23,136 bases of DNA, taken from positions 1 to 23,136 of IMG/VR virus record IMGVR_UViG_3300037502_003716, one strand, 5' to 3'. Both the position numbers and the translations under genes were made by a program. The number at the start of each line of letters is the position of its first letter. Position 1 is the stretch's first letter. Positions 2,449-22,642 of this stretch are shown in pieces. The notes below the pieces were generated by a model. The model was not told where the DNA came from. It made no database searches and worked only from the letters and a program-made list of their open reading frames with translations. The DNA comes from a virus.

Positions 2449-2461
2449 ATTAATAGTAAAC

Positions 2462-2491
2462 GCCCTTCGCGGTGCATCAACACCCAAGGGC
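2462..2491 (+). promoter_or_regulatory. Leader hairpin upstream of the antirepressor ORF
   Basis: GCCCTT (2462-2467) pairs with AAGGGC (2486-2491), and inside it GGTG (2471-2474) pairs with CACC (2481-2484) around a six-base loop. It lies between the predicted transcription start and the ATG at 2517 and could affect mRNA stability or translation, or bind a repressor. There is no T-run after it, so it is not a terminator. Confidence 0.4.
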
Positions 2492-2516
2492 TGTAAACCT
2501 ACATAACAGGATCACA

Positions 2517-3293: not shown

Positions 3294-3309
3294 GGTAGGG
3301 TGAAATAGC

Positions 3310-3341
3310 AAAAAGCCTAGGATTTAACCCCTAGGCTTTTT
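3310..3341 (+). terminator. Rho-independent terminator after the antirepressor gene
   Basis: AAAAAGCCTAG (3310-3320) is perfectly complementary to CTAGGCTTTTT (3331-3341), with a ten-base loop. It ends in a T-run on the plus strand and an A/T-run on the other side, so it could work in both directions; the convergent zinc-ribbon gene ends at 3443. Confidence 0.85.
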
Positions 3342-3372
3342 AGTGTGGATGTGTGTTTATTTGACCTCGTAG

Positions 3373-3417
3373 ACGCCTGTACTAGGTGAACTCACGTCCC
3401 CGAATGCGGAAACATTG
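3373..3417 (-). repeat. Copy A of a roughly 50-bp repeat with an internal hairpin
   Basis: The segment starting GCCTGTACTAGGTGAACTCA and continuing with GTCCCC...CGGGGAC is a degenerate direct repeat of the one at 3880-3927. Its arms GTCCCCGAATG and CATTGCGGGGAC pair with one bulged base around a short loop. It lies just after the stop codon of the zinc-ribbon gene. Relative to copy B, several stem bases change in a way that keeps pairing. Confidence 0.55.
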
Positions 3418-3442
3418 CGGGGACACTTATTATTATAACAAT

Positions 3443-3874
3443 TTAATCAGTCCCAAATTTTGCCTTGAGTGCCAACATAGCTTTTTTCTTCTTATGTCTG
3501 AGATATGATTCGGCATCGGTCAGGTTCCGACCTGGATAGATTCTCGGCCTCCCTACGGGCTTGGGGTCTGAGGTTGTTATTTTCTCATGGATTCTCGGTC
3601 GCCCCTCTGGTTTGGGATCTGAAATTTGGGACGCTCCGCAGGGTGTACAGCGCCACTTTTGTCTCCCGTCCGAATGAACCCCGTTTTTTTTCATCTTGTG
3701 TCCGCACTTTGGACATGGCGGGTTTTTCTTGGCTTCATTGGATTTTCGATTCCGCAACCAACAGGGATTGCAGAAATACTTTTGTTTTCCGGTTGGCGTT
3801 ATCCCAGACTTCCACATCTTCCCACCGCAAGTTAAGCAGCGCGGGTTATATTTTTCCGTGTTATCTTTGTCCAT
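3443..3874 (-). CDS. Double zinc-ribbon protein with two AT-hook-like motifs
   Basis: 143 aa. Two tandem zinc ribbons of the same layout are visible: Cys13-Cys16...Cys35-Cys38 and Cys54-Cys57...Cys76-Cys79, each with a G-x-Q/K-K-Y/W-x-C-x-x-C second half, resembling the zinc ribbons at the N-terminus of IS1-type InsA and related transposase proteins. They are followed by a 17-residue tandem duplication containing SDPKPEGRPRI (85-95) and SDPKPVGRPRI (102-112); GRPRI is close to the AT-hook core that binds the minor groove of AT-rich DNA. The tail is strongly basic. No catalytic domain is present, so it is probably a sequence-binding accessory or regulatory protein, not a transposase. Related hairpins lie directly before its ATG and after its stop. 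Confidence 0.7.
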   Translation of the reverse strand: MDKDNTEKYNPRCLTCGGKMWKSGITPTGKQKYFCNPCWLRNRKSNEAKKNPPCPKCGHKMKKNGVHSDGRQKWRCTPCGASQISDPKPEGRPRIHEKITTSDPKPVGRPRIYPGRNLTDAESYLRHKKKKAMLALKAKFGTD

Positions 3875-3879
3875 TAGTA

Positions 3880-3927
3880 GCCTGTTCTGTAGGTTTACTC
3901 AAGTCCCCAGATGTGGCAAAACATCGT
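3880..3927 (-). repeat. Copy B of the roughly 50-bp hairpin repeat, in the leader of the zinc-ribbon gene
   Basis: Shares GCCTGT, AGGT, ACTCA and GTCCCC blocks in the same order and spacing with copy A. The hairpin pairs GTCCCCAGATGT with ACATCGTGGGGA(T). Compared with copy A, a G-C pair has become A-T and an A-T pair has become G-C, so both sides changed together. It lies about 15 bases before the ATG at 3874 and next to the stop of the gene upstream (3941). Confidence 0.55.
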
Positions 3928-3940
3928 GGGGATAATTTTT

Positions 3941-4177
3941 CTAGGTACTCAATACAATTGTAGCCGGATAAATTGCCATATAATCGTTTTCACCTAAGCT
4001 AATTTTCTGCTGCTCAACTAAAGTAAAAATTGCAAACCAAAATACTTTTTCACTCAATCCCAAATCCTTCTGAGCTTTAGAGGGATAGATAAATACTGCC
4101 CTCTTTCCTAGGAATTGAGGGATTAACCATTTTTCCACAATGGTGATCGCATTCTCTAGTTCTTGAGTATTAATCAT
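3941..4177 (-). CDS. Small protein of unknown function
   Basis: 78 aa, not recognised. It is a compact alpha/beta sequence (ELENAITIVEKWLIPQFLGK, then KAQKDLGLSEKVFWFAIFTLVEQ and a short beta-like C-terminus) compatible with a small winged helix, but no family signature stands out. It has no signal peptide or clear membrane segment. It is the first gene of a two-gene minus-strand unit with the zinc-ribbon gene, with a hairpin repeat between them, and diverges from the surface-protein block through overlapping -10 boxes at 4206-4215. The shared location suggests a regulatory or DNA-binding role, which is only an inference. Confidence 0.5.
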   Translation of the reverse strand: MINTQELENAITIVEKWLIPQFLGKRAVFIYPSKAQKDLGLSEKVFWFAIFTLVEQQKISLGENDYMAIYPATIVLST

Positions 4178-4205
4178 AATTTAATCAGCACAAAACTATT
4201 GTTTT

Positions 4206-5837: not shown

Positions 5838-6761
5838 ATGACGGAGAGTTTGCCACCAGAGGTTTTTGGTACGGGGGAGTTAATAACCTTTTTCCCTACA
5901 GTTGAATTTTTAAAGGAACAGGCAAAATATATCTGGGAAATGACAGGTGATTATTATGTCTGGATCAGTCACTACGACAAAGGTAGTTATACCGGCTCTA
6001 ATCCATATTTGTATATTGGAAATATTGCTGATATTCAGGAAAGAAATAATAAATCTTTTAAATTTTCTTCTGACGATATTAGATACTCTTATAACGAGTC
6101 GTCGGTTCTGTTCTCTGTCAGTCTACCAGAGAAGATTAGTTTTGATAGAGGTAAACTGTCTTCTGTTAAAACAATCTATGTTAGCCATGAAACAGTCCCA
6201 ATAATCGGGGGAAATTACGTCAAAACAGATAGCAATTTGCTTTTAGTTCCATTTTTTGAAAACGCAACAACAATTCACAGCAACTTTTTAAATACATCTA
6301 ATAGTTACTACTTAGGTGTTGCTAAGGATGTTGATATAGTTAAACACGATAACGAGACTAATGTATGTTTATATAATTCATCTCAAGATTTTATAGATAA
6401 GTGTTTAAATCAATTTGATAACACAAAAGATGGGGCAACATTCTGTCCTCTTGTTCCTGTATTGTCATTGGGGACTGTACCGGAAAGGCCTGGTGTGGTG
6501 ACGGATTACGCTACGACACCCGTATTGATTGAGTCCAATAAAGGTAATGTAATTTATGATTGCTTATTCTTATTTAGAGCTTCCGAACCTGATTATAGCG
6601 ACGCTCTTGTTTGCTATGCAGCCCCGCTAGAAAAAGACTATTGTATTATTAGTTCTTCTGAATCTGATACTATTCCCGATCAAGTGTTAAATGGTAGTAT
6701 CCTTGAGATTAGCGAAATAAGAATCAAGACAGAATTAACTTGGGAGACTATAATTATATGA
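5838..6761 (+). CDS. Hypothetical protein of the surface/tail block
   Basis: 307 aa, not recognised. It is rich in S, N, D, Y and beta-strand patterns (for example YYVWISHYDKGSY, NPYLYIGNIADIQER, NSYYLGVAKDVDIV), has no signal peptide and no TM segment. Its last bases overlap the next gene (ATGA), so the two are probably translated in series. Low complexity of charged residues and absence of catalytic motifs suggest a structural or ligand-binding role; this is inference from context. Confidence 0.55.
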   Translation: MTESLPPEVFGTGELITFFPTVEFLKEQAKYIWEMTGDYYVWISHYDKGSYTGSNPYLYIGNIADIQERNNKSFKFSSDDIRYSYNESSVLFSVSLPEKISFDRGKLSSVKTIYVSHETVPIIGGNYVKTDSNLLLVPFFENATTIHSNFLNTSNSYYLGVAKDVDIVKHDNETNVCLYNSSQDFIDKCLNQFDNTKDGATFCPLVPVLSLGTVPERPGVVTDYATTPVLIESNKGNVIYDCLFLFRASEPDYSDALVCYAAPLEKDYCIISSSESDTIPDQVLNGSILEISEIRIKTELTWETIII

Positions 6762-12346: not shown

Positions 12347-12565
12347 GCGATCGCACTCCTCGTCCACGGGATAAAAAACTATATATCCCTTTGAATTTAT
12401 TGTCACTTTACACTTAATCGTCTTCCCTTGATTGTCGAGTAAATACCCTACAATCGACGGCGCAGCTATTTCCGTTGGTGCTGTTTCTGTTGTCACTTTT
12501 ATTTCCTCAATTCTTGAACCTATTTTTATCACAAGATTATGATAAAATAAACATAGCAAAACCAC
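12329..12565 (-). CDS. Small hypothetical protein
   Basis: Up to 78 aa, starting with GTG; an internal GTG (residue 12) is equally possible. Not recognised. The middle is Thr/Glu/Ala-rich (VTTETAPTEIAAP), and the C-terminal part KTIKCKVTINSKGYIVFY looks like two or three beta strands ending in an acidic DEECDRNANND tail. It contains a HIP1 octamer, has no neighbours in an operon and lies in a gene-poor zone, so it may or may not be translated. Confidence 0.35.
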   Translation of the reverse strand: MVLLCLFYHNLVIKIGSRIEEIKVTTETAPTEIAAPSIVGYLLDNQGKTIKCKVTINSKGYIVFYPVDEECDRNANND

Positions 12566-12634
12566 TAAAAATTCTCTACGTTTAATGGCGGTCAGAAAAA
12601 ATCAATGTCTAATCAAAACCCAAGAGGGATTACA

Positions 12635-12682
12635 GGGTGTCCCGAATAACGACTCCGATTTCAAATCGGAGTTGCTCCTGTG
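12635..12682 (+). repeat. Interspersed repeat, copy 1, with perfect palindrome
   Basis: Begins GGGTGTCCCGAATAACGACT (the full shared block is 21 bases, 12635-12655), continues with the palindrome ACTCCGATTT-C-AAATCGGAGT (12652-12672) and ends TGCTCCTGTG. Copy 3 at 12799 repeats the whole unit of about 48 bases with only the central base of the palindrome changed (C to G). Confidence 0.75.
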
Positions 12683-12742
12683 GTGACAACTAAAACGGTG
12701 TAAAAGTAACCTTGACAGTCTCGCGATAGATAACTGGTTAGA

Positions 12743-12763
12743 GGGTGTCCCGAATAACGACTC
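12743..12763 (+). repeat. Interspersed repeat, copy 2 (short form without palindrome)
   Basis: The same 21-base block as copies 1 and 3, but followed by TGAATGTCTGAAAGTCC instead of the palindrome. It is 108 bases after copy 1 and 56 bases before copy 3, in the same orientation. Confidence 0.7.
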
Positions 12764-12798
12764 TGAATGTCTGAAAGTCCCTTCTGGTAAAACTTTGA

Positions 12799-12846
12799 GG
12801 GTGTCCCGAATAACGACTCCGATTTGAAATCGGAGTTGCTCCTGTG
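12799..12846 (+). repeat. Interspersed repeat, copy 3, with perfect palindrome
   Basis: Same unit as copy 1: the 21-base block (12799-12819), palindrome ACTCCGATTT-G-AAATCGGAGT (12816-12836) and TGCTCCTGTG. All three copies have the same orientation. Apparent reading frames through this zone on the minus strand repeat the phrase SESLFGTP because of the DNA repeat and are not genes. Confidence 0.75.
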
Positions 12847-12863
12847 CGTGGAGGGAACCCACC

Positions 12864-13250
12864 TCAATACGTTTTTCTAACAGAAGTACACAGCCACTTT
12901 ATACGACTGTTTATATTCAGCGATTAGAGAATATGCGTGATCATGAAGTGGCTGATCACCTTTGGACTACTTTTCGTGAGGGCGCAGAAGTATTACTTCT
13001 TGTCGAAAAGGAATATCGCGTTCCTGTCAGCAAAATGGATTTGTGTGATGCAAGGAGCCAGTCTAGTTTTAGGTTTTGCAGAAAACTGGCTGCGCCATCT
13101 TCTGAACCGAGAAACTGGTACACAAATCAAAACCTTACGAGGATTGGGTTTTACTGAAGAAACTCAGAAAGTGGTACATGAATCAAACAAAGGAATCTTG
13201 GTGCATTGCAGCGTAAATTACCTGTTGAGGAAAAGGGGTCTTAGCAATTA
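12864..13250 (+). pseudogene. Possible decayed ORF, no family recognised
   Basis: One frame reads STQPLYTTVYIQRLENMRDH, then EVADHLWTTFREGAEVLLLV and EKEYRVPVSKMDLC; another takes over near 13050 with GASLVLGFAENWLRHLLNRE and TGTQIKTLRGLGFTEETQKV. The two parts look protein-like but are in different frames, have no convincing start, and the second frame runs on into the antisense of the KGG gene. This suggests a frameshifted remnant. I cannot name a family; it could also be chance coding-like sequence. It fills most of the roughly 700-base gap between 12566 and 13268. Confidence 0.22.
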
Positions 13251-13268
13251 CATCAACTCTAAATTTGT

Positions 13269-14607: not shown

Positions 14608-15180
14608 CTATACTCCTACTTTGTCCTGGCCTCCTGCTTTGCGCCGCAGATATTCAGCAAGGAGAAGTGCCTCGGCCCGCCCGTTGTATTTCTTGAGCTT
14701 TAATTCCATAGCCATCTGGGGGAATAACTGCACCGCAATAATCCTTGATGCGTCCTTGTCTTTCCCTATCAAGCCATAGTGTTTTTTCCATTCTTGAGGG
14801 GTCACCAACTCCATAGGAATATTTAACGCTGCGATCACTCCCAACCAAATGCCAAAATTCGTCCCAAAATCAAAGGTTGATCTAACTCCCTGTCCTGGCA
14901 TTGAATGAACGCTCTCTATGGCGATTATTGAGTTTGAGGTAATTGACTGTGCTAACTCCGATGCCATTAATGCAGGGCTTGACTTCGTTGTGATTTTAGT
15001 TTTGGACTTGACTGTTCCCTTGTCCGCAACCTGATTAAATAGCGTGAGGTTTGGCTTTTTGCTTTTAACCTTAGTTTTTATCTCAATAACTGGACAATCA
15101 ATGAGTTTGATTCCCGATGGAGAAATGATAGCGATCGCTCCGGTTTTGCCTGGGTCAATTCCGATAAAAGTATTGATCAT
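14608..15180 (-). CDS. RuvC-like phage Holliday-junction nuclease
   Basis: 190 aa from the ATG at 15180, which overlaps the stop of the upstream gene (TAATG). The RNase H-fold motifs of RuvC-type resolvases are visible: FIGIDPGKTGAIAII with Asp9; SIIAIESVHSMPGQG with Glu89; LVTPQEWKKHYGL; and the C-terminal NGRAEALLLAEYLRR, which matches the family 'dgrAeAlLia.yl'. Members cut branched DNA during replication, recombination or before packaging. A region of about 40 residues (roughly 30-75) rich in Lys and Thr is an insert compared with cellular RuvC, and is commonly variable in phage versions. It is the last gene of the minus-strand operon, just before the terminator. Confidence 0.78.
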   Translation of the reverse strand: MINTFIGIDPGKTGAIAIISPSGIKLIDCPVIEIKTKVKSKKPNLTLFNQVADKGTVKSKTKITTKSSPALMASELAQSITSNSIIAIESVHSMPGQGVRSTFDFGTNFGIWLGVIAALNIPMELVTPQEWKKHYGLIGKDKDASRIIAVQLFPQMAMELKLKKYNGRAEALLLAEYLRRKAGGQDKVGV

Positions 15181-15452
15181 TATTTCCATCCCTTCTTAAT
15201 ACTATTCTGATTAGCAAAAGCTACATGATCTCTGGTTATCTGCCACTTATAACGGGGTCTTAACTCCTCTCCAATCCTGACGCAATCGGAGTCGGTATCA
15301 GTCAAGGGAATCACACCATTCTGATATTTGAACAAGGTCTTAGTTACCCAATTGACATCTGTTAATAATTGATTCCCGCCGCGCTTTCTGGCAGTATCAA
15401 CAACTAACTCGACAATCTCTGGATAGTCTGATTTTGGTTTGGATTTTTTCAT
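15180..15452 (-). CDS. Small 'YPE' family protein, paralogue 2
   Basis: 90 aa, no known family. It shares with the genes at 15453-15782 and 19908-20204 a start like DYPEIVELVVDTA, then D.NWVTKTLF.YQ, a DCV..GEELRPR motif and a W-Q/N-I-T/S end (KWQITRDHVAF). The similarity to the 19.9-kb copy is the clearest: WVTNTLFTYQ and DCVWGAESIKPRSEW. No signal peptide or membrane segment is seen, so it is a soluble helical protein. It is one base apart from the next gene and touches the RuvC-like gene (TAATG), so it is in the same transcript. Function unknown; the fold could be a small helical adaptor. Confidence 0.6.
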   Translation of the reverse strand: MKKSKPKSDYPEIVELVVDTARKRGGNQLLTDVNWVTKTLFKYQNGVIPLTDTDSDCVRIGEELRPRYKWQITRDHVAFANQNSIKKGWK

Positions 15453-15782
15453 TTAAAACTCCTGTTCATTATCTATAGTTTTCTTCATCCCTGAGTTAAC
15501 AGGTGTTAGCCCCTCTCGCCACGCCAACCATCGGGTTTGTTGGTTTAGTTTGGCGGCGTTGTAATCCTCTAAGCTGATGTTCCAATCCTCAACAGGAGCA
15601 AACTCTAAACCAAGATCAAGAATGGTTTTGACAGCCCCTTCACGGGGGTATTTGGCTTTAGGGTTTGTCGTCCGGTGATAGAGTACCATCAAAATAAAGT
15701 CTTTGTTTTTGGGGATGGGATTGGGTTCTGGGATTAACAGGATTTGACTGTAGACTGATTCGACTACTTCGGGATAATTCAT
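15453..15782 (-). CDS. Small 'YPE' family protein, paralogue 3
   Basis: 109 aa from the ATG at 15782; an earlier TTG at 15818 is less likely because the other family members also begin a few residues before YPE. It starts MNYPEVVESVYSQILLIPEP, has PIPKNKDFILMVLYHRT in the place of the WVT.TLF segment, and DLGLEFAPVEDWNISLEDYN in the place of the R..W.IT end. It is the most diverged of the three paralogues and longer at the C-terminus. Its stop is next to the following ATG. In the ancestral order it would have followed the ATPase gene by about 40 bases; the secreted-protein cassette now lies between them. Confidence 0.58.
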   Translation of the reverse strand: MNYPEVVESVYSQILLIPEPNPIPKNKDFILMVLYHRTTNPKAKYPREGAVKTILDLGLEFAPVEDWNISLEDYNAAKLNQQTRWLAWREGLTPVNSGMKKTIDNEQEF

Positions 15783-15821
15783 GGGCTTGTGTTTTGCTTT
15801 GCTTGTAGGATAAATCAAGGG

Positions 15822-15846
15822 TTCTACTACATATCAGGTAAAAAGT
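15822..15846. repeat. 25-bp direct repeat, left copy (att-like)
   Basis: Starts TTCTACTACATATC and ends AGGTAAAAAGT; identical to 16321-16345. The right copy is the 3' end of the ATPase gene (codons NFLPDM-stop), whereas this copy is free of any gene, so it is the duplicated one. Confidence 0.8.
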
Positions 15847-15866
15847 AAAATAGTTTTAATTTTTTA

Positions 15867-16280
15867 TTATTTTAGATTGGAAAAAGAAATAGCTAATGTA
15901 TTTTTTATCCCACCATATAAATCATAAAATTCGACAATTATTGATTCATTTGGTTTCATCACTCGATAACTTCTATCAAAATATCCTGAACAATAGTCTG
16001 CACCGTAATCTTTTTCACAAATAACACGAAAAGGGATATCCGAAGTGATGTTTAATTGTTGAGGTATATCTAAAGGATTTTTTATTATGTGTTGTGTTTT
16101 TTTGTTTTTTGATATAAAAACTAAATAATTTCCTGAACGATTAAATATCGTTCTATTTGCATTAGCCAAACTATTTCCTGTATGATTACGCATGGTTTTA
16201 TTTTCATTAGCTAAACATGAATTAGCAAAAGATACGCTCAATAATGTAACAGTCAATAGTGATAAAAACAGTTTTTTCAT
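15867..16280 (-). CDS. Secreted protein of unknown function in a 25-bp-repeat-flanked cassette
   Basis: 137 aa with a clear Sec signal peptide: MKKLFLSLLTVTLLSVSFAN then SCLA, with likely cleavage after ALA-like SCLA (about residue 24). The mature part is about 110 aa and has a short internal duplication (NKTMRNHTGNSLANAN and NRTIFNRSGNYLVF), many Asn/Ser/Thr and a pair of cysteines in CEKDYGADYCSGYFD. This is the make-up of a small exported beta-rich protein. No family is recognised. It is the only secreted gene at the distal end of the operon and lies between two 25-bp direct repeats, so it appears to be a recent insertion ('moron'). It is more A/T-rich than its neighbours. Confidence 0.65.
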   Translation of the reverse strand: MKKLFLSLLTVTLLSVSFANSCLANENKTMRNHTGNSLANANRTIFNRSGNYLVFISKNKKTQHIIKNPLDIPQQLNITSDIPFRVICEKDYGADYCSGYFDRSYRVMKPNESIIVEFYDLYGGIKNTLAISFSNLK

Positions 16281-16320
16281 TATTTTTTCTTGTTTTTGTT
16301 TTATGATAATTTTACCATTA

Positions 16321-16345
16321 TTCTACTACATATCAGGTAAAAAGT
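16321..16345. repeat. 25-bp direct repeat, right copy (within the 3' end of the ATPase gene)
   Basis: Identical to 15822-15846. It covers the last six codons and the stop of the ATPase gene plus five further bases (to 16321). A target in a gene's 3' end that is recreated after insertion is the usual outcome of site-specific integration. Confidence 0.8.
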
Positions 16346-18218
16346 TTACACTTCTGAAACCATTAATTTCCTTGATTAGTTTTTGACCTAAACCAAAATT
16401 TTGCAATTCATCAAATATCAACTCAGTAGTTTCAGCATTTAATCCAAACTGAGTTCTGAGTGATGATTTGCGGTAACAGTCACGGGCTGGTATAGGTTCA
16501 CCCTTAAATATTTCCTTGATGAAATTAAACACCGCTTGAGCCGATTCAGAAAGTGTTTTATCGGGTAATGTTTTGTTAGCTGTTCCATTCCACGAAGGTT
16601 TATATTTAGCTTGTAATTCTGACTCAAGACTTAATCGTTTTTGCTCATCCCAATTTTTTGTGATGTAAAAAGCTATTTTCACCGATACATCACCAATTGA
16701 TTCAAGATGTTTTTTAACATGATGTTCCCAGTCACCTTTATTGTTCCAACGTCTCCAAAGGTCTTTAGATTGACCTACATAAAGAGGGTTTTGATAACCG
16801 TCAACAAATACACAATATACTCCCGCTTCGTATTGTGGTAGCCATTGCAAGCCACTGGGATAATCTATTGATTGCCAGGTATTACAATCTAAGGGATTTA
16901 TTGATTGTAACACTTTGGGAACATCATCTTTTTTTAGATTGATATTAGGTGATGGAACTATTTTAACATCTATTGGTTTATTTAAAAAAATAGGATTTAA
17001 TAAACCATCAGGAGCATTGCCTTTTTTTCTATACTCAAGATGATGTTTATGCGTTGGGTGTTCTGCGATTTGATGCTGATTAGAACCACAAACAACAACA
17101 GGATAGGCAGCACTTTGGATGTACTGAAATTCAGGGGTGTCATGTTTCCACAGGTTTTGAATCTCACTCCTAGCACTAGCACCACAAAGAATTAAAAGGA
17201 AATTATTTCTAAACTTCCCATCAATTCCTATGGCTTCGGTGTTATGACTTTGCATGAAACCGATTAAACAAATATCAAACTTTCTAGCATTAGAAAGTTT
17301 CCGAATCGCATAAGTAAAAGTCTTAACTCTTTTTTCCTTGTTTTGCAATGGTTTGATAGTGTCTAATTGTGCTAACTCGGACATCGTATCATTGATTTCA
17401 TCCAAGCAGACAATGATAGAATGCCCGTCTTTTTCTTTTCGGTTCTCGACTTCTTCAATTAGCCAGCACAAAATCTGATAAATTATTTCAACATCTGATT
17501 CAACCCTAGGGAAACCCATTTGTTGCCAGATAGGGTTTTTTGAAGCGTGGATATCCAAAACAATCACCTCGGCGGGTTTATGCTCAGTTAGTTTGCCAAT
17601 CACGAAACCAGCACCTAGAGATGTTTTTGCGCTCCCAGAATTTCCCCCGATTAATATTCCCGAAGACTCATCGGCTAACTTATCCCAGTTATAGAAGTTT
17701 AAGATATGATTGGAGGGAATATCGCAAGGAATAAATGATAGTTCATCTGAATAGATATCATGATTCTCTTGATTATATTCCACAGGACTCTCTCGGTCTA
17801 AAACCATCAATTGACTCCGGTGAAGATTCCCTTCATTGTCATCCGACCGTCTTTGTTGCGATGGTGGTAATGTTTGATCATGGCTTTTAGGCTGCGCGAT
17901 CGCTTGCTGACTTTCGTTCAAATATCTAATATCCCTAAATTTTTCTAACTCATATTCCATCCCCAACCGCCGCAGGAATATAGCCTCGGTTTGCTCCTCT
18001 ACCTTGGCTTGTAGCTTGATTGATTTCTCTGATTGACTCCCCATCACCCACCCCGCAACAGATAGCACCGCACCCGCAGATGTACCAACAATCCCTAACT
18101 GTGGGTTTTTGTTGATTGCCAAAGGTGAAAACATCGCCAGACTACAACCAGCGATGGTTAGACCTATTGACCATGCTGACAGGTGAGGATTTTTTAAATG
18201 TTCAGGGGTGTTATTCAT
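16326..18218 (-). CDS. Membrane-anchored FtsK/HerA-like ATPase fused to a GIY-YIG nuclease
   Basis: 630 aa from the ATG at 18218, which overlaps the stop of the previous gene. Order of parts: two N-terminal TM helices (about 15-35 SIGLTIAGCSLAMFSPLAI and 41-60 LGIVGTSAGAVLSVAGWVMG); a charged linker to about 180; an ATPase with Walker A IGGNSGSAKTS (189-200) and Walker B SIIVCLDEIND (267-277), followed by a sensor-like FDICLIGFMQSHN (314-326); a GIY-YIG nuclease (about 464-545) with GVYCVF, LYVGQSKDLWRRW and the acidic LESELQAKYKPSWN end, so all key residues are present; and a C-terminal helical/winged-helix part. TM pair plus P-loop with the VLD and LDE segments is the FtsK/VirD4/HerA DNA-pump plan. 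No relaxase or VirB4 partner is seen nearby. A C-terminal GIY-YIG domain on such a pump is unusual. It is likely to move or process DNA at the membrane. Confidence 0.75.
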   Translation of the reverse strand: MNNTPEHLKNPHLSAWSIGLTIAGCSLAMFSPLAINKNPQLGIVGTSAGAVLSVAGWVMGSQSEKSIKLQAKVEEQTEAIFLRRLGMEYELEKFRDIRYLNESQQAIAQPKSHDQTLPPSQQRRSDDNEGNLHRSQLMVLDRESPVEYNQENHDIYSDELSFIPCDIPSNHILNFYNWDKLADESSGILIGGNSGSAKTSLGAGFVIGKLTEHKPAEVIVLDIHASKNPIWQQMGFPRVESDVEIIYQILCWLIEEVENRKEKDGHSIIVCLDEINDTMSELAQLDTIKPLQNKEKRVKTFTYAIRKLSNARKFDICLIGFMQSHNTEAIGIDGKFRNNFLLILCGASARSEIQNLWKHDTPEFQYIQSAAYPVVVCGSNQHQIAEHPTHKHHLEYRKKGNAPDGLLNPIFLNKPIDVKIVPSPNINLKKDDVPKVLQSINPLDCNTWQSIDYPSGLQWLPQYEAGVYCVFVDGYQNPLYVGQSKDLWRRWNNKGDWEHHVKKHLESIGDVSVKIAFYITKNWDEQKRLSLESELQAKYKPSWNGTANKTLPDKTLSESAQAVFNFIKEIFKGEPIPARDCYRKSSLRTQFGLNAETTELIFDELQNFGLGQKLIKEINGFRSVNFLPDM

Positions 18219-18564
18219 TATTTTCAGGTTGAGGTAATGTGAAATATATCCAAATTGAAACAGTGACAATCAACAATAAAATCCATAATAATAATCTTAA
18301 AACTATCCAAGATTGACCTATTCCTAAAGCATAAAAAACACCAATCAATAAAGCTATAGCACCAAAAACTAATTCATCAGAGTTTACAGTATCTTGATTA
18401 TCAGAAATTAAATATAAAATAACACTACCAACAATCAAACCCAGATAAAGACAAATTAGCAATACTCTAGCTTCAGGATAAAGCAAAGCAAAATGTGATA
18501 ACAAAAAGGAACAAGATAAACCCGTTCCAAAGATTGAAAACTTTTTGACTTTCCATAGTTTCAT
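18211..18564 (-). CDS. Four-TM membrane protein
   Basis: 117 aa from the ATG at 18564 (MKLWKVKKFS); a TTG ten codons upstream would run through the hairpin at 18572-18594. About four hydrophobic helices are visible: IFGTGLSCSFLLSHFALL, VLLICLYLGLIVGSVILYL, ELVFGAIALLIGVFYALGI, and VLRLLLWILLLIVTVSIWIY. The loops are short and a small acidic C-terminal tail remains (PQPENNE). No family is recognised. The stop overlaps the ATPase ATG by eight bases, so it is likely to be made in step with the ATPase and could form a membrane platform or channel with it. Confidence 0.62.
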   Translation of the reverse strand: MKLWKVKKFSIFGTGLSCSFLLSHFALLYPEARVLLICLYLGLIVGSVILYLISDNQDTVNSDELVFGAIALLIGVFYALGIGQSWIVLRLLLWILLLIVTVSIWIYFTLPQPENNE

Positions 18565-18571
18565 GTTTTGA

Positions 18572-18594
18572 TTGGGGGAATGTTTCACCCCCAA
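18572..18594 (-). promoter_or_regulatory. Intergenic mRNA hairpin in the operon
   Basis: TTGGGGG (18572-18578) pairs with CCCCCAA (18588-18594) with a nine-base loop, in the only sizeable gap (36 bases) between two otherwise tightly packed genes. No T-run follows in the direction of transcription, so it is more likely an mRNA stability or processing element than a terminator. Confidence 0.45.
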
Positions 18595-18600
18595 ATAAAT

Positions 18601-19116
18601 TTACAGTTTCATCGAGTTTTCAATTTTGTCCAACTGGCGCATCACGTTAACAGCCCCTACATTTTCGTTAGCGTAATTACCAACGATTTGCATATATTTA
18701 GGAGCTTGACCATCTAACATTTTTTGAGTTTGAATCTTTTCCTCAAAACGTTTCAATGAACCTTCTGCCACACCTTTAACATATTGTTGGTCAGCTTCGT
18801 ACCACTCAGTACGAGCTTTATCAACTTTCAATTGAGCTTCGACAATTACCTTTTTATTTGACGCTGCTTTGATTGCATTTTCGGCAATAATCTTAGCTCC
18901 CTTAGCTTCATTTTCAGATGGGTTAACTCGGTCAGGAATATTAAACTGTTGGTCAAATTCATCGGTTCCTGCATAGGAGCGTTCACGGGTATAGGGGGTG
19001 ATATCACCTTTTCCTGTTGGACTCATCACCTTAGAGAAATTAGCGCCCGTACCAGCTTCTTTGATAATGTTTCCAGTTGAAAAACGATTGCGTAAACCGT
19101 CTAATTTAGTTGCCAT
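18601..19116 (-). CDS. Soluble coiled-coil protein of the membrane operon
   Basis: 171 aa from the ATG at 19116, which has an upstream GGAGAAAAAG; the earlier ATG at 19134 lacks this. No signal peptide or TM. The N-terminal 70 residues are low in helix and rich in G, S, T and P (GTGANFSKVMSPTGKGDITP), followed by a long alanine/lysine/glutamate helix (ENAIKAASNKKVIVEAQLKV, then KARTEWYEADQQYVKGVA) and a C-terminal helix. This looks like a dimerising or fibre-forming coiled coil. It is the main non-membrane protein between the TM genes and the ATPase, so it may be a scaffold, a pilus or capsid-like subunit, or a cytoplasmic adaptor; which of these is not decided. Confidence 0.6.
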   Translation of the reverse strand: MATKLDGLRNRFSTGNIIKEAGTGANFSKVMSPTGKGDITPYTRERSYAGTDEFDQQFNIPDRVNPSENEAKGAKIIAENAIKAASNKKVIVEAQLKVDKARTEWYEADQQYVKGVAEGSLKRFEEKIQTQKMLDGQAPKYMQIVGNYANENVGAVNVMRQLDKIENSMKL

Positions 19117-19372
19117 TTCTTTTTCTCCATTCAATAATTAGCTGTTCTTTGCACCCTTCGCCACCTTTGTTTTTCAGGCATTTTTCATAACCTGAAAGGT
19201 TGGCTACGGCTACAAACTTTTGAAACTCCTCTGTTGGTTTATTTGTCAACCTGACAACTTCAGAAGCTATCAAACCAACTAACAATAAACTCAACAACCC
19301 CATTGACCAATTAAATACCATCAATCCTGTTATCTGGGGGGAGGTCTGGGTTTCAGATTGTTGCAAATACAT
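19106..19372 (-). CDS. Small single-TM protein
   Basis: 88 aa with one TM helix (about residues 17-40: LMVFNWSMGLLSLLLVGLIA) followed by a charged helical C-terminal part with CLKNKGGEGC. The N-terminus is Gln/Thr/Ser-rich. No signal-peptide cleavage site is evident. The last eleven bases overlap the start of the coiled-coil gene. Not recognised. Its position beside the rhomboid gene makes it a possible substrate of that protease, which is only an inference. Confidence 0.6.
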   Translation of the reverse strand: MYLQQSETQTSPQITGLMVFNWSMGLLSLLLVGLIASEVVRLTNKPTEEFQKFVAVANLSGYEKCLKNKGGEGCKEQLIIEWRKRNGN

Positions 19373-19924
19373 TTAATTTGCCTCCAATTTTCTTTGAGAA
19401 TTTGCATCTAAATACCCCGCTATCGCACCACCAATAAACCCTGCTAGATGACCTTCCCAACTAATCCCTTGGGCAACCGATGGCAGCATTCCACCGATTA
19501 AATTTTGGAATATTATCCAGGTAATAACAGCGCATACCAGATTAGGAAAATCAAGACGAAAGACAGCACTAAGAAGACAAAATCCAAAAAAACCATATAT
19601 CACCCCGCTTGCTCCTATATGATTTGAACCAGGTTGACCAAAGAACCAAACACCAAAACCTTCAATTACTGAAATCACCCAAAAGTTGTAATTGAATTTT
19701 CCAGGGGCTTTGAAAATTGTCAGGGTTGCCAATGGCAAATATCCGACTGTGTTCCCTATCAAGTGTTGGGGGTCTCCGTGCAGGAATGGCGAGGTTATAA
19801 TTCCTAACATTCCTATGCCTTCCACTCCTGGTCTGATTCCAAAATAATCAAATTCGGGGAAAAACATTTCCAAAGCCCACATTATTCCCAGATAGGTAGC
19901 TGCACATTTAAAATCTTTGAGCAT
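19373..19924 (-). CDS. Rhomboid-family intramembrane serine protease
   Basis: 183 aa, about six hydrophobic helices. Family signatures are present: the first loop SPFLHGDPQHLIGNTVGYL, with His54 and Asn58 (oxyanion) of the H..GN pattern; the catalytic serine in HIGASGVIYGFFGF (Ser106, G-A-S-G); and the catalytic histidine in SWEGHLAGFIGG (His159). Both members of the Ser/His dyad are intact, so it should be active. Rhomboids cut TM segments of other membrane proteins. It lies among many small single-TM genes in the same operon, which would be natural substrates. The N-terminus overlaps the upstream gene by 17 bases. It starts MLKDFKCA and has no signal peptide beyond its first TM. Virus- or plasmid-encoded rhomboids of this kind are uncommon. 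Confidence 0.88.
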   Translation of the reverse strand: MLKDFKCAATYLGIMWALEMFFPEFDYFGIRPGVEGIGMLGIITSPFLHGDPQHLIGNTVGYLPLATLTIFKAPGKFNYNFWVISVIEGFGVWFFGQPGSNHIGASGVIYGFFGFCLLSAVFRLDFPNLVCAVITWIIFQNLIGGMLPSVAQGISWEGHLAGFIGGAIAGYLDANSQRKLEAN

Positions 19925-20204
19925 ATTTTTGTTTACGTTCAGCTATCCATTTTTCTTTCCATCTTTTAACTGAAATCTCATTTTGCTCTTTGGTGATATT
20001 CCACTCAGAGCGAGGCTTGATACTCTCAGCACCCCAAACACAATCTTGATGTGTTTCAGACATGGGTGAATATTCTGGCATTTGTTGATAAGTGAAAAGT
20101 GTGTTAGTCACCCAATCAGGGTCAAGCATTACATCTTTGGGTTTAAAAGTTGATTTTGCTTGTTCAATCAATAACGAAACTATCTCTGGATAATCATTTA
20201 CCAT
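19908..20204 (-). CDS. Small 'YPE' family protein, paralogue 1
   Basis: 98 aa; member of the small family also at 15180 and 15453 (see there). It begins MVNDYPEIVSLLIEQAKS, has DPDWVTNTLFTYQQMPEY, an HQDCVWGAESIKPRSEWNIT block, and a basic helical tail (KRWKEKWIAERKQKY). The ATG overlaps the stop of the 50-aa ORF (ATGGTAA). It is soluble and not recognised outside this family. Having the same family at both ends of the operon suggests it takes part in the operon's main function or binds one of its membrane proteins. Confidence 0.62.
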   Translation of the reverse strand: MVNDYPEIVSLLIEQAKSTFKPKDVMLDPDWVTNTLFTYQQMPEYSPMSETHQDCVWGAESIKPRSEWNITKEQNEISVKRWKEKWIAERKQKYAQRF

Positions 20205-20350
20205 TTCAAAGCTCCTGGTGTCTGGTGTTGCGGTGACTGTGATTGCTGTTGGTTAGGTAGGTTAATCTTTCCTGAGTAAAGGAAAAATGCTGCTGCAACG
20301 GCTGCAATTCCTAACCAAATCAAATTCTGTTTATTTTTTGTGAAATCCAT
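20198..20350 (-). CDS. 50-aa single-TM protein
   Basis: MDFTKNKQNLIWLGIAAVAA (residues 1-20), then AFFLYSGKINLPNQQ and a Gln/Ser/Pro-rich tail ending TPGALKW. One TM helix at about 10-26 and a short Gln-rich extracytoplasmic or cytoplasmic tail. Too short for many gene finders but supported by its overlaps: its stop lies inside the ATG region of the YPE gene downstream (ATGGTAA), and its start overlaps the 44-aa ORF upstream by 20 bases. Confidence 0.55.
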   Translation of the reverse strand: MDFTKNKQNLIWLGIAAVAAAFFLYSGKINLPNQQQSQSPQHQTPGALKW

Positions 20351-20465
20351 AATATCTGTTACAAACAATGTTGTTGTGAATTGCGACTAAAGGGGGGATT
20401 GTCAGGTAAAGAATGATTCCAAAAATCATCCATTGGATAATGAATCTATGGTTTATCGTTATCAT
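20331..20465 (-). CDS. 44-aa single-TM protein
   Basis: MITINHRFIIQWMIFGIILY continuing LTIPPLVAIHNNIVCNRYYGF and KK. One TM helix at about 10-28. The ATG overlaps the stop of the 53-aa ORF by the sequence ATGA, the standard coupling in this operon. Not recognised; could be a subunit of a membrane complex. Confidence 0.48.
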   Translation of the reverse strand: MITINHRFIIQWMIFGIILYLTIPPLVAIHNNIVCNRYYGFHKK

Positions 20466-20623
20466 AAATCCCCTTGAGCGTAGGCTTGACAGAAAGCTCC
20501 GGTATTGTCTGGGGTGCGATTATCAACAATATCAGCACCCCCTCTTTGTAAGCAAAGGAGATAAGTTAAGAACCAAACTACTATCCAAAACATCATTTCC
20601 TTTTTCGTGTACAAATTTGTCAT
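20462..20623 (-). CDS. 53-aa single-TM protein
   Basis: Starts MTNLYTKKEMMFWIVVWFLT and continues YLLCLQRGGADIV and DNRTPDNTGAFCQAYAQGDL. One TM helix at about 10-26, with a C-terminal part that includes a Cys and ends acidic. The ATG at 20623 overlaps the stop of the 88-aa gene (ATGA); inner ATGs at 20596 and 20593 are in the same frame and less likely because they lose this coupling. Not recognised. Confidence 0.52.
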   Translation of the reverse strand: MTNLYTKKEMMFWIVVWFLTYLLCLQRGGADIVDNRTPDNTGAFCQAYAQGDL

Positions 20624-20886
20624 CGCTGCATTTTATTGTTGTTGTTGATGATTATGTCGGGCGATGGTTGACTAGGACGTTCAATGTATCTTGTTCCTCC
20701 TACAACAATAGGTGAAATAAATATCAGGAATATAAAACCTATTGGCAAAAGCATTATATTTGAAGACATTCCTGATGATGTAGCATTCCGGTTTGGTTGT
20801 TGTTGGCAATCATCACTTGGTTGTTGATAGTTTTGACCGGGAGCTTCATAGTAATTGATATGGATTCCGTTCTTTCTGTTTGACAT
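20620..20886 (-). CDS. 88-aa single-TM protein with Gln/Asn-rich ends
   Basis: N-terminal 40 residues are hydrophilic (YYEAPGQNYQQPSDDCQQQP), followed by one TM helix (IMLLPIGFIFLIFISPIVVG) and a short tail PSPDIIINNNNKMQR. No signal peptide, so the N-terminus is probably on the cytoplasmic side. Not recognised. It starts five bases after the stop of the previous gene and overlaps the next by four bases. Confidence 0.6.
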   Translation of the reverse strand: MSNRKNGIHINYYEAPGQNYQQPSDDCQQQPNRNATSSGMSSNIMLLPIGFIFLIFISPIVVGGTRYIERPSQPSPDIIINNNNKMQR

Positions 20887-20891
20887 TGTTT

Positions 20892-21173
20892 TTAATTGTT
20901 TTCAAATTTGTACATATTCACTGCACCACCATTAGGAGTCATCACAGTGTTGGGTGAAACTTGCGGTTGTAATGTTTGAGGCTGTGGTCTTGTTACCATA
21001 TTTTGATAAATCAAACCTGCAACAATTCCAACTATTAACCACTGCCACCCATTTAACTTGTCAAAAAATTTATCTACCTTCATCGTTTTTTCTCCTAGTA
21101 ATTCGTTAATTATTGAAAGTTTTTCGAGGTCTTTATCAGAACATCTGTCCTGTGACAAGATTCTGTTTTTCAT
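20892..21173 (-). CDS. Small single-TM protein (start uncertain)
   Basis: The open frame reaches to 21416, but that part overlaps the secreted-protein gene at 21184-21570 and reads as a shadow. Two starts fit better: ATG at 21173 (93 aa; ten bases after the upstream stop) and ATG at 21083 (63 aa), which has the strong Shine-Dalgarno TAGGAGAAAAAACG. From 21173 the protein has an N-terminal helical part (CSDKDLEKLSIINELLGEK), then one TM helix (WLIVGIVAGLIYQNM) and a Pro/Gln/Thr-rich tail ending VNMYKFENN. The interval and TM pattern match the neighbouring genes. The sequence cannot decide between the two starts; both isoforms may be made. Confidence 0.52.
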   Translation of the reverse strand: MKNRILSQDRCSDKDLEKLSIINELLGEKTMKVDKFFDKLNGWQWLIVGIVAGLIYQNMVTRPQPQTLQPQVSPNTVMTPNGGAVNMYKFENN

Positions 21174-21183
21174 TTGTCTAAGC

Positions 21184-21570
21184 TCAGAAGAACTTAAAGA
21201 TGATTGTGTTTTGACTTCCGATGTTGAATCTGTACCCCGATAATCCTGAATCACCGTATCCGCGTTCTGCAATCTCTGGATTCTGTTGATACTGACGTGG
21301 CTCATATTCTTGGTTTTCTTGGGGTAATGTGTATTCGTATTCTTGGATGGTTCGACGGTTTTGGCACGGTCTTTGTGGCGTAGTTTCTGTTTGCAAATAT
21401 GCCTGTTGAAACTCATAACCTGGCGGGAGTTGTGCCAAGGCGTGACCTGTCATAGAGGGCGAGACAAGGCATAAGACAAGGCTTGTGCCAAGTCGTGCCA
21501 AGGTTTTGTGAGAAATTGCCGTGTCGCATGACAGGTTGTCGTGAACCAACGGGAGAAGAATTGTATCCAT
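21184..21570 (-). CDS. Secreted Tyr/Gln/Glu-rich protein
   Basis: 128 aa. A rather long N-region (about 26 residues) is followed by the hydrophobic core LGTSLVLCLVSPSMTGHALA and a likely cleavage at ALA-Q (about residue 47), so this is a Sec-exported protein, not a lipoprotein as no lipobox Cys follows. The mature part is 80 aa, rich in Q, E, Y, P and R (QEYEYTLPQENQEYEPRQYQQ) and ends with IGSQNTIIFKFF. No fold or family is recognised; such low-complexity exported proteins are often adhesive or surface-layer parts. Its ATG overlaps the stop of the 73-aa gene (TAATG). It is coupled to the TM genes, so it may be an extracytoplasmic part of the same complex. Confidence 0.6.
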   Translation of the reverse strand: MDTILLPLVHDNLSCDTAISHKTLARLGTSLVLCLVSPSMTGHALAQLPPGYEFQQAYLQTETTPQRPCQNRRTIQEYEYTLPQENQEYEPRQYQQNPEIAERGYGDSGLSGYRFNIGSQNTIIFKFF

Positions 21571-21764
21571 TATTTTGAGTCCTTTTGCACTATGTTAATG
21601 AATTGGTTTTTTGCAGAGAGTAGACTGCAAATACCGTTTGCATTTGCTTGTAGCATCCAGATGACACTACCACCTCCAATACCCGTTCCAATTATTAGGA
21701 GTATGATTGTGTTAATCATTGACTTCTTAATATTGTTTGCTGTTTTTGCGATAGATGACACCAT
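21570..21764 (-). CDS. Small single-TM protein
   Basis: 64 aa from the ATG at 21764 (MVSSIAKTANNIKKS); a TTG at 21791, preceded by CGGAGGGA, would give 73 aa and may be the true start. A basic N-terminus precedes one TM helix with a Gly-rich core (NTIILLIIGTGIGGGSVIWM), then a polar C-terminal part (NGICSLLSAKNQF) with one Cys. The size, positive start and single TM resemble inovirus coat-type proteins, but this is only a resemblance. It is the first of the membrane-protein series and its stop overlaps the next ATG (TAATG). Confidence 0.52.
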   Translation of the reverse strand: MVSSIAKTANNIKKSMINTIILLIIGTGIGGGSVIWMLQANANGICSLLSAKNQFINIVQKDSK

Positions 21765-21842
21765 AATCTGTACCTGGTTTTTGCTTAACAAATCCCTCCG
21801 TGCATAAGAAAAACCACATCGGGATATTGCTTTTTGATTGGT

Positions 21843-22388
21843 TTATTTGCCCTCTGGCAACGCAAAGTAATTGAGAACGTTTTCGCTTCCGGTAAGTTGA
21901 AATCGATCTGCTCTTTCAACCTCTCGAATCTCGGCATCAATAATCATTCCCACTTGATTGAAACAGGTTGTTACTTTTGCAAATTCAAAGCCTTGGGCAA
22001 AATGTTCTAAGACTTTCTCCTGTAGTTTTTCCGCAGCCAGTTCGACAACCTTGGGGGCTATTTGTTCGGCTAGATTGTCAGCCATTTTGTCGATTGTTTC
22101 AGCCATAGATCCGGCTGCGTGTTCTGTTTTTCCCCCCGCTTTCTTCTGTTGGGATTGCAAGTCTTTAACGTATTTTTCAACAGCTTGGGAAACAGACAAT
22201 GAGTGGGTTTGTTGTATTCCGATAATTGAAGAAAGAATCGCTACCATCCCATTTTGAGGAACATTTGTTGCGTCAAAATGGAAATTTTCTACCAGAGAGG
22301 AGATGATTAATCTGGCTCTTTCTGATTTGACTCCAACCGCAGATGCGATCGCGTCAAGGTCGTAGTTTTGTTGAGTTTGTGCTGTCAT
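21843..22388 (-). CDS. Hypothetical helical protein with N-terminal HTH-like part
   Basis: 181 aa. Residues about 9-30 (LDAIASAVGVKSERARLIIS) look like a helix-turn-helix; the centre has a long amphipathic helix (MAETIDKMADNLAEQIAPKV then VELAAEKLQEKVLEHFAQGF) that would form a coiled coil or bind membrane surface. No TM or signal peptide is seen. It overlaps the previous gene by the ATGA sequence, so both are co-translated. It is probably a DNA-binding or partition-like regulator for this operon or a cytoplasmic component of the complex; no family is recognised. Confidence 0.52.
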   Translation of the reverse strand: MTAQTQQNYDLDAIASAVGVKSERARLIISSLVENFHFDATNVPQNGMVAILSSIIGIQQTHSLSVSQAVEKYVKDLQSQQKKAGGKTEHAAGSMAETIDKMADNLAEQIAPKVVELAAEKLQEKVLEHFAQGFEFAKVTTCFNQVGMIIDAEIREVERADRFQLTGSENVLNYFALPEGK

Positions 22389-22642
22389 AATCCTCTTAAT
22401 TTAATGTCGTTTAAAATCCGTTCACGGGTTCGAGTTCTTGCCCTGTTTTTATACTCGATTAACTTGCTTGCAGCATCAGCCGAAATCATGCCGTCATTGG
22501 GTTGAAAATCAAATTCCTCTGGGCTTAAAACGCCTCGGAGGTCTTGACATAGGGTTCGGAGGTAATTAACCGAAACTCCTAAACTCTCGGCTACCTGCTC
22601 ACGGGTAAAATGGGTAATTTCCTCAATACTTGCGCTCCGCAT
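22385..22642 (-). CDS. Small HTH protein (MerR-like fold), first gene of the long operon
   Basis: 85 aa. FTREQVAESLGVSVNYLRTL is a typical winged HTH of the MerR/excisionase type; the C-terminal part (SADAASKLIEYKNRARTRTR) is a basic helix. Regulator of its own operon is the likeliest role. The operator palindrome and the direct repeats sit just upstream (22673-22756). Confidence 0.62.
   Translation of the reverse strand: MRSASIEEITHFTREQVAESLGVSVNYLRTLCQDLRGVLSPEEFDFQPNDGMISADAASKLIEYKNRARTRTRERILNDIKLRGL

Follow-up and report, generated by a model that had tools for sequence, protein, structure and literature searches.

Why should a relative of tailed cyanophages carry a long minus-strand operon in which many small membrane proteins surround a single ATPase, and what does such an operon move, or build? 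The question is raised by the linear 23,136-base IMG/VR virus record IMGVR_UViG_3300037502_003716, the whole of which was analysed and is here called the window. An original prediction, made from the letters alone, had seen at 14608 to 22642 about nineteen tightly packed genes of a membrane DNA-handling system, and had left side by side a module of a filamentous or membrane-containing virus, a DNA-export machine and a membrane defence complex. The coordinates and content stand, with 19 genes, and DNA handling at a membrane is borne out by the fold of the motor, its winged helix, its nuclease domain and its relatives on plasmids. Our preferred answer, held tentatively and at somewhat less than an even chance, is that the operon is a phage-borne cyanobacterial plasmid module which would move double-stranded DNA (dsDNA) of the element itself through a membrane or septum in the manner of the TraB/Spd system of Streptomyces, at best guess into the neighbouring cell of a filament. 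Because the same kind of operon occurs on cyanobacterial plasmids, pumping of element DNA is favoured over the building of particles. Movement of the element's own DNA is likely; that it passes between cells we infer. Motor class, domain order, plasmid relatives and conserved neighbours are supported by the computation.

What kind of motor is it? The ATPase gene and the parts of its product are these.

16326..18218, minus strand: ATPase, 630 amino acids (aa) from its ATG, with a transmembrane (TM) hairpin, FtsK/TcpA-class motor, GIY-YIG domain and C-terminal winged helix
18042..18188, minus strand: two predicted TM helices at the N terminus, residues about 13-61 in 632-aa numbering (hydropathy peaks at 19 and 43; the helices lie in a low-confidence part of the model)
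16992..17714, minus strand: motor domain, residues 171-411 (Walker A GGNSGSAKTS, Walker B CLDE and QSHN by alignment; fold matches)
16605..16874, minus strand: putative GIY-YIG nuclease domain, residues 451-540 (Pfam 18.3 bits, below the cut-off of 22.6; Foldseek UvrC)
16329..16559, minus strand: predicted C-terminal winged helix, residues 556-632 (predicted local distance difference test score, pLDDT, about 90; winged-helix chains at Z 8.2-9.9)

The full-length model, built from 16 sequences, is confident for the motor (residues 171-390, pLDDT blocks 67-89), whose best fold match is TcpA of plasmid pCW3 (Z 15.9, 3.0 Å over 199 residues), with FtsK tied at Z 15.1 and then type VII secretion ATPases (14.1), HerA (11.9) and the STIV packaging ATPase B204 (11.5). 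TcpA is also found by the sequence profile of the ATPase (E 0.003). VirB4, VirD4, Zot and SpoIIIE chains are not among the best 50 structural matches listed, which says nothing against kinship with them. Membership of the FtsK/TcpA class is well supported by the modelled fold, with HerA ranked below TcpA, and so of the TM-anchored 'FtsK/HerA-like' ATPase with a GIY-YIG domain that had been proposed, the anchor, the FtsK side and the nuclease domain are kept and the HerA side is less favoured. The class goes by fold and not by Pfam membership, because FtsK_SpoIIIE scores 13.7 bits against a gathering score of 24. A separate model of the C terminus (mean pLDDT 80) contains the GIY-YIG domain and the winged helix; for the former Foldseek puts UvrC GIY-YIG chains on top at E 0.004-0.05, with no match below 0.001. 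Hydropathy and models together predict the order membrane anchor, motor, winged helix, which is the order in FtsK (TM anchor, motor, winged helix); selection of DNA sites by a winged helix is known for FtsK and for Streptomyces TraB.

The same parts recur in other arrangements. On plasmid AP017993 the protein after the motor holds a winged helix of the window type (E 2.7e-31); its GIY-YIG half was recognised by reading, and the match on the sister plasmid LR882956 is named 'GIY-YIG nuclease family protein'. At 21036-21764 of locus L024, on NIES-204 plasmid 2, a separate GIY-YIG-like protein with the window winged helix directly follows the motor gene. A window-like winged-helix tail comes directly after the motor in 4 of 24 tails (L025, L065, L099 and L101; E 0.0003-0.003 in a small database), those of L065 and L099 being the same protein. 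In the phage locus L023, at 2289-4190, the motor domain is of another kind, and TM part, nuclease, winged helix and a CC177 100% identical to that of the window are retained; its motor type was found on 27 cyanobacterial plasmids, and 6 of 25 listed are annotated as conjugative DNA transfer proteins.

In which virus does this motor sit? The window ATPase matches 22 loci in viral contigs, and long stretches of the window align with the related phage records G008 (98 kb), G010 (85 kb), G002 (78 kb) and G001 (57 kb). Of 15 records searched for terminase (PHROG 2), 4 have it. Between G008 and Planktothrix phage PaV-LD identity is 96.9% for the terminase, 93.5% for the portal, 98.4% for the major head protein and 84.7% for the tape measure, and the left edge of the window aligns at 98% with G010 at the point where the terminase match of G010 starts; the 69-aa fragment at that edge has, alone, no PHROG match. 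Because of these matches to PaV-LD and of that edge, the window record is assigned, on sequence, to a group of tailed cyanophages related to PaV-LD. DNA of PaV-LD extends over 24% of the window and, in G008, over 40%. From the same kinship and from spacer matches given below, Planktothrix is the presumed host.

Hence the reading as a virion module, in which the small TM proteins would be coat proteins and the ATPase would package or extrude, runs into relatives that carry tailed-phage terminase, portal, head and tape-measure genes, and into motor modules on plasmids down to 12.6 kb with a distant relative on the 6.4-kb pDU1. The gene pattern first noticed suits it, as does the structural match to B204 (Z 11.5). 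The reading was rejected on the tailed relatives and plasmid copies, and we leave it a very small probability.

Could a tailed phage live as a plasmid? Because terminase and the replication protein CyRepA1 (NCBIfam 436 bits against a cut-off of 200) both occur in G008, that record is a candidate phage-plasmid; about ten copies of an 11-bp iteron-like repeat stand directly behind its CyRepA1 gene, from 13212 onward (L033). Among 10 G008 proteins inspected there were no lysis genes. Glacial phage-plasmids with partition genes are described in the available part of PMC4490671. In the window itself, 785-3293 and 3443-3874 encode a ParB-like protein, an anti-repressor and a Lar-like restriction alleviation protein (by PHROG), with a DNA methyltransferase by reading; the first three stand in identical order in PaV-LD.

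On the plasmid side, a PLSDB search with the window motor gave 13 plasmids, 10 of Planktothrix, 2 of Annamia and 1 of Pseudanabaena. Those of Planktothrix, at 60-80% motor identity, hold the nearest relatives of the motor found outside the phage group. All 13 are typed non-mobilizable. On plasmid AP017993 and in three Planktothrix contigs (L063, L064 and L065) the motor is followed, 0.7-2.4 kb downstream, by a CyRepA1-like replication gene; on the 12.6-kb plasmid ABRG53g the two are about 3 kb apart, and on LR882968 a 1100-aa DUF3987 protein follows the motor, with no CyRepA1 match by BLAST and no NCBIfam family. Two related queries brought the total for this type to 18 plasmid records, including pDU1 (twice in PLSDB) and a 92-residue Moorena match. 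The pDU1 protein of Nostoc PCC 7524 (L124 1557-2690), 32% identical over 171 residues to the P. rubescens motor L101, is overlapped by a 49-aa gene. The PaV-LD type of motor is on two Oscillatoria plasmids at 29-30% identity, and a third type is on 36 plasmids (18 mobilizable, 5 conjugative). That makes 56 motor-bearing plasmid records of three types, some plasmids being duplicated, and all their genera we take to be filamentous. Among 227 CyRepA1 plasmid records at least 48 are presumably from unicellular genera (four of ten genera named), and the bias of motor plasmids to filamentous hosts has a Fisher p of 1.3e-5, uncorrected for duplicates and relatedness. A scan of genome contigs gave at least 594 candidates and at least 9 relatives, in Planktothrix, Phormidium, Tolypothrix, Nostoc, Pseudanabaena and Symploca records; across the phylum 9 of 386 genomes matched, some weakly. 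No particle genes are named in the annotations of the plasmid relatives, within the stretches read. Zero plasmid terminases by PF03237 is a weak negative, because the same search missed the terminase of PaV-LD itself.

Is the module then part of a conjugative apparatus? The original prediction saw no recognisable type IV system, and the searches agree: the VirB4 N-domain PF03135 (that N-terminal domain only) is in 0 of 19 records, and the single relaxase family PF03432 in 0 of 7 phage records and 1 of 6 plasmids, so that the ATPase does not always have a relaxase and VirB genes for neighbours. The operon as a complete type IV secretion system was rejected on the absence of the one and rarity of the other. 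A subtler proposal is mobilisation, in which the motor, as a TcpA-like coupling protein, would hand the element over to the type IV channel and relaxase of another plasmid in the same cell. In its favour, TcpA heads the structural matches, streptococcal mobilizable elements commonly encode coupling proteins of that type according to the accessible part of PMC5357655, 23 of the 36 plasmids with the third motor type are those typed mobilizable or conjugative, and PF03432 is present in 3 of 5 bacterial genomes with the motor, on contigs other than the motor's. Against it, the 13 plasmids with the window's own motor are without exception non-mobilizable, that relaxase family is in just one of the six tested, and the conserved membrane partners would be superfluous. 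Mobilisation is accordingly judged improbable.

Who are those partners? Selection on them was gauged by omega (dN/dS, the ratio of nonsynonymous to synonymous change) between the window and 10 loci, drawn from the 22 in viral contigs and from the L083 set, in divergent pairs. From 22642 down to 14608 the genes are as follows, the ATPase lying between TM127 and sec137.

22385..22642, minus strand: HTH85, small helix-turn-helix (HTH)-like protein, first gene of the operon (weak matches only)
21843..22388, minus strand: CC181, probable coiled-coil protein with an HTH-like start by reading (omega 0.06-0.15; no family match above noise)
21570..21791, minus strand: TM73, single-TM (hydropathy; omega 0.08-0.10)
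21184..21570, minus strand: sec128, possibly secreted by reading (no TM at the hydropathy threshold)
20892..21305, minus strand: TM174, probable 137-aa start, one hydrophobic segment by reading (below the hydropathy threshold)
20620..20886, minus strand: TM88b, single-TM (hydropathy, omega)
20462..20623, minus strand: TM53, small, one hydrophobic segment by reading (omega 0.12-0.19)
20331..20465, minus strand: TM44, one hydrophobic segment by reading (absent from the list of open reading frames, ORFs)
20198..20350, minus strand: TM56, single-TM, 50 aa from its ATG (hydropathy)
19908..20204, minus strand: YPE3, small soluble protein (PaV-LD ORF121 match, 39% identity)
19373..19924, minus strand: rhomboid protease (PF01694, E 1.2e-17)
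19106..19372, minus strand: TM88a, single-TM (hydropathy, omega)
18601..19116, minus strand: CC177, soluble, probably coiled-coil, two genes upstream of the motor (bridging link to plasmid proteins; omega 0.05-0.16)
18211..18594, minus strand: TM127, multi-TM, directly upstream of the motor gene and overlapping it (hydropathy; omega 0.14-0.19)
15867..16280, minus strand: sec137, N-terminal hydrophobic segment, optional gene (PaV-LD ORF126 homologue; missing in several relatives)
15453..15818, minus strand: YPE2, small soluble protein (ORF list; YPE motif comparison)
15180..15452, minus strand: YPE1, small soluble protein (82% identical to PaV-LD ORF121)
14608..15189, minus strand: RuvC-like Holliday junction resolvase (PHROG 1770, 1.4e-36; syntenic with PaV-LD ORF119, 54%)

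The tight packing is real: with the starts chosen, neighbouring genes overlap at 11 of the 18 junctions and abut at 2, and at the other 5 they stand 5-51 bases apart. One apparent gap is closed by TM44, a 44-aa single-TM gene below the length cut-off of the ORF list, with a counterpart in 10 of 10 loci compared. The ORF at 21785-21940, which overlaps CC181 in another frame and has omega 0.38-0.53 in seven computable comparisons, was rejected as probably no gene, and TM174 probably starts later, to give 137 aa. Omega is 0.05-0.19 for ATPase, TM127, CC177, CC181, TM88a, rhomboid, TM53, TM73 and YPE1, 0.22-0.30 for YPE3, 0.09-0.45 for TM88b and 0.23-0.57 for the overlapping pair sec128/TM174; it is saturated, or the pairs identical, for RuvC, HTH85 and, except in one pair, TM56, and ambiguous for sec137 and YPE2. 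Nine loci have a match to HTH85, at 100% identity in 7 of them and about 55% in 2. Most operon genes are under purifying selection, which answers the doubt raised at the outset whether the small ORFs are conserved as proteins.

Other early calls were of uneven fortune. The rhomboid is intact, with the GASG serine and later histidine present by reading, and the RuvC-like nuclease holds. The three 'YPE' paralogues come down to two clear ones, both matched by PaV-LD ORF121, the third having in common a short N-terminal motif only (E 0.019, single comparison). The four-TM protein, TM127, has three hydropathy peaks and a fourth by reading, and several of the small proteins called single-TM or secreted are so by hydropathy, with TM53, TM174 and sec128 so called by reading only. 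Pfam and PHROG scans of most small proteins (TM56, TM44, TM53 and TM73 being outside the scan) gave no result, nor did an Rfam scan, and a promoter and terminator scan gave no more than the level of shuffled sequence. Perfect 25-bp direct repeats at 15822-15846 and 16321-16345 flank sec137, and five loci lacking that gene (L004, L006, L007, L009, L019) are joined exactly at the repeats. Further left, at 12515-13258, a segment with 49-bp and 29-bp repeats is absent from several relatives.

Do the partners go with the motor outside the phages? A TM protein stands directly upstream of it in 15 of 20 loci (window and PaV-LD included, and the loci not independent), the exceptions being L025, L104, L111, L071 and pDU1; the baseline is 22.4% of 504 mechanically called ORFs below 400 aa in the same loci. 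CC177 and its counterparts on Planktothrix plasmids have no direct match to each other, and both match the P. rubescens protein of the same position (pairwise hhalign, E 4.9e-6 and 2.8e-10); no kinship of CC177 was found with the coiled-coil proteins of Annamia and PaV-LD. The rhomboid is in all 8 records searched of the window's phage group and in 0 of 15 others.

What stands at this locus in PaV-LD itself? ORF117-ORF133 occupy it, with methyltransferase, RuvC, YPE1, HTH62 and ORF133 conserved as flanks, and ORF122-130 have no match in the window module except that of ORF126 to sec137. The layout is nevertheless like that of the window, with coiled-coil-like ORF130, TM proteins ORF129 and ORF128 and TM-anchored ORF127, which is annotated FtsK/SpoIIIE and has in Pfam only a weak HerA DUF87 match. 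Judged by sequence, PaV-LD holds a different, largely unrelated TM-anchored motor module between conserved flanks. No rhomboid match was found in PaV-LD. It has the M23 peptidase ORF123 and the GH108 enzyme ORF122; in both Oscillatoria plasmids the third gene behind the PaV-LD-type motor encodes a GH108 protein, fused to M23 on pOSCIL6304.02, and among 23 records GH108 occurs in these three only. This type of peptidoglycan hydrolase near a motor would suit passage through a wall. ORF123/124 have been studied as growth-inhibiting lysis genes (PMC9096620, in its available part). A wall-opening role in DNA passage, alongside the undisputed one in lysis, is conceivable because they have motor-adjacent counterparts on plasmids, and for that reason these reported lysis genes deserve a second look.

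ORF127 also bears on defence or superinfection exclusion, i.e., a membrane ATPase-nuclease that recognises and cuts incoming DNA, since it matches mad8 of the MADS system in PADLOC (E 5e-8, 30.8 bits), as a Tolypothrix motor does weakly (3.6e-4). A GIY-YIG domain joined to a motor among many membrane proteins would fit, and phages of this group compete with plasmids and other phages. However, five window proteins were scanned with no convincing match in PADLOC-DB 2023, the 6e-4 match of CC177 being on a coiled-coil stretch, the nuclease segment is missing from five aligned plasmid motor proteins, and the module's position is near replication genes. The defence complex entertained at the start we think quite improbable.

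CRISPR-like arrays (clustered regularly interspaced short palindromic repeats) were observed in the related phages. Those at G010 69914-70528 (L041 9914-10528), G001 35781-36187 and G012 6043-6726 (L057), with 9, 6 and 10 repeats, adjoin proteins of 557-560 aa, of which the two scanned, in G010 and G012, match Cas12u2 (PADLOC 356 and 364 bits); those at G002 26024-27385 (L044) and G005 37674-38650 (stretch L054-L056), with 17 and 14 repeats, adjoin a 432-aa IscB-like protein (Pfam RRXRR and HNH). Seven of 50 spacers match other elements compared: one, at 29 of 30 nucleotides, the TM gene that precedes the motor in the Planktothrix loci L024 and L063; one of 36 nucleotides, exactly, NIES-204 plasmid 4 (L028); one, at 36 of 37, the Cas12u2-like gene of G010 and G001; one G008, G001, PaV-LD and its own phage G002; two G008 at 88-92%; and one, weakly at 26 of 29, plasmid L025.

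Does the DNA leave the cell at all? The main rival to transfer between cells is a segregation motor, a membrane-anchored translocase that pulls or clears element DNA at the division septum, FtsK/SpoIIIE- or partition-like, with no passage between established cells. An FtsK-class motor with a winged helix, on plasmids typed non-mobilizable and in several cases near replication genes, is what it expects, as is a small DNA-binding protein leading the operon like that of a partition operon; two plasmids of Oscillatoria and one of Nostoc, whose motors are of other types, moreover have ParM/StbA in the same stretch. Set against this, the P. pseudagardhii plasmid, the Annamia plasmid and one of the Oscillatoria plasmids already have ParA, whose task the module would in part duplicate, and peptidoglycan hydrolases near the motor (PaV-LD, Oscillatoria plasmids) and the many small membrane proteins go unexplained. 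We regard segregation as doubtful and still the rival to be reckoned with. DNA export is the best of the three readings first offered, with segregation within the cell competing with it.

Several points weigh against between-cell transfer as proposed here. DNA cargo, transfer and particle-free spread are predictions from sequence and fold. Both Pfam scores of the ATPase, for FtsK_SpoIIIE and for GIY-YIG, fall below their cut-offs, and its full-length model carries little confidence beyond the motor (mean pLDDT 55.9; predicted template modelling score 0.43). The window-like winged helix goes unrecognised by sequence in 20 of 24 motor tails. The PaV-LD and third motor types lean to HerA (DUF87) in Pfam, below cut-off, and the three types may not be one family. 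Shared ancestry and sampling alone may lie behind the filamentous-host pattern. CyRepA1 is in only 2 of 15 phage records, and G010, the nearest to the window at its left end, has no match across its 85 kb (it has a PaV-LD-type helicase), which weakens the case for a plasmid life of the window virus. Finally, an 8-mer cluster search found in the 23-kb window no cluster of 8-bp repeats like the TraB target; the 8-mer clusters in five related phage records are the CRISPR arrays and that in G008 the iteron-like array, and small clusters were seen on plasmids.

If between-cell transfer is nonetheless what the operon does, how might it work? The core would be a dsDNA translocase of FtsK/TcpA class, held in the membrane by its N-terminal hairpin, and the winged helix at its C terminus would select sites in the DNA of the element itself. 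TM127, beside the motor, with TM88a, TM56, TM44, TM53, TM88b and TM73, may form the membrane passage, CC177 and CC181 may act as adaptors in the cytoplasm, and HTH85 as the regulator. Cutting or nicking of the DNA on its way through would fall to the GIY-YIG domain, and processing of one of the single-TM proteins to the rhomboid. Element dsDNA would so pass through the septum to the neighbouring cell of the filament, and the element could spread, or be regained, without a virion. A further step, unlikely in our view, is that a tailed cyanophage also travels without particles, its plasmid-like or early-infection genome being pumped by a TraB-like machine through septa to filament neighbours, by a route shared and contested with resident plasmids.

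What would follow? The 13 non-mobilizable motor plasmids raise the question of how plasmids spread and persist in filaments, and a module with plasmid carriers down to 12.6 kb in size, and a distant relative on pDU1 (6.4 kb), offers a concrete gene to study. If DNA is moved between cells, dsDNA transfer by a single FtsK-like motor reaches beyond actinobacteria, and phages can use it too. No paper on the module turned up in searches of the openly licensed PubMed Central literature on cyanobacterial phage-plasmids, Planktothrix prophages and plasmids and plasmid spread in filaments; the available part of PMC10899382 mentions neither ATPase, FtsK, phage nor Planktothrix. FtsK-class motors of mobile elements are already known; those searches brought up no precedent for the combination, for its carriage by tailed phages or for the exchange of one such module for an unrelated one at a single locus.

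How does it compare with known systems? TcpA of pCW3 is the top solved structure for the window motor by both fold and sequence profile, but its partners are a relaxase and a VirB-type channel, and TcpA is known only from Firmicutes, or from a subset of Gram-positive systems, in the accessible parts of PMC5357655 and PMC12857230. FtsK/SpoIIIE shares TM anchor, motor (Z 15.1) and winged helix in that order; the window motor differs in being element-encoded, with a compact TM part and a nuclease domain between motor and winged helix. PaV-LD ORF117-ORF133 has the locus, the flanks and its own TM-anchored ORF127 with TM and coiled-coil-like partners, whereas its M23 and GH108 enzymes and the absence of a rhomboid match set it apart. 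On Planktothrix agardhii NIES-204 plasmids 2-4 the motor is 72-78% identical over the matched part, and on plasmids 2 and 4 a coiled-coil protein precedes it, with TM90 in between on plasmid 2; unlike the window, plasmids 2 and 4 have no rhomboid, and the plasmid motor proteins have no internal GIY-YIG domain, a GIY-YIG-like protein following the motor on plasmid 2. Streptomyces gives a precedent that has been tested: TraB delivers dsDNA without other known parts of a type IV secretion system and spd genes are often in the same transcription unit (PMC12857230), and spread along the mycelium needs 3-6 spd genes (PMC4170104), as the available parts of these sources have it. The likeness is one of layout, and the phylum is another: a single membrane-anchored FtsK-like motor and small membrane proteins in an apparent single transcription unit (co-transcription being deduced from gene overlaps), VirB4 not found, small plasmids with replication genes among the carriers, and filamentous multicellular hosts. 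No 8-bp target repeats were found in the window, and to the TraB/Spd scheme its operon adds a GIY-YIG domain, a rhomboid and carriage by a tailed phage.

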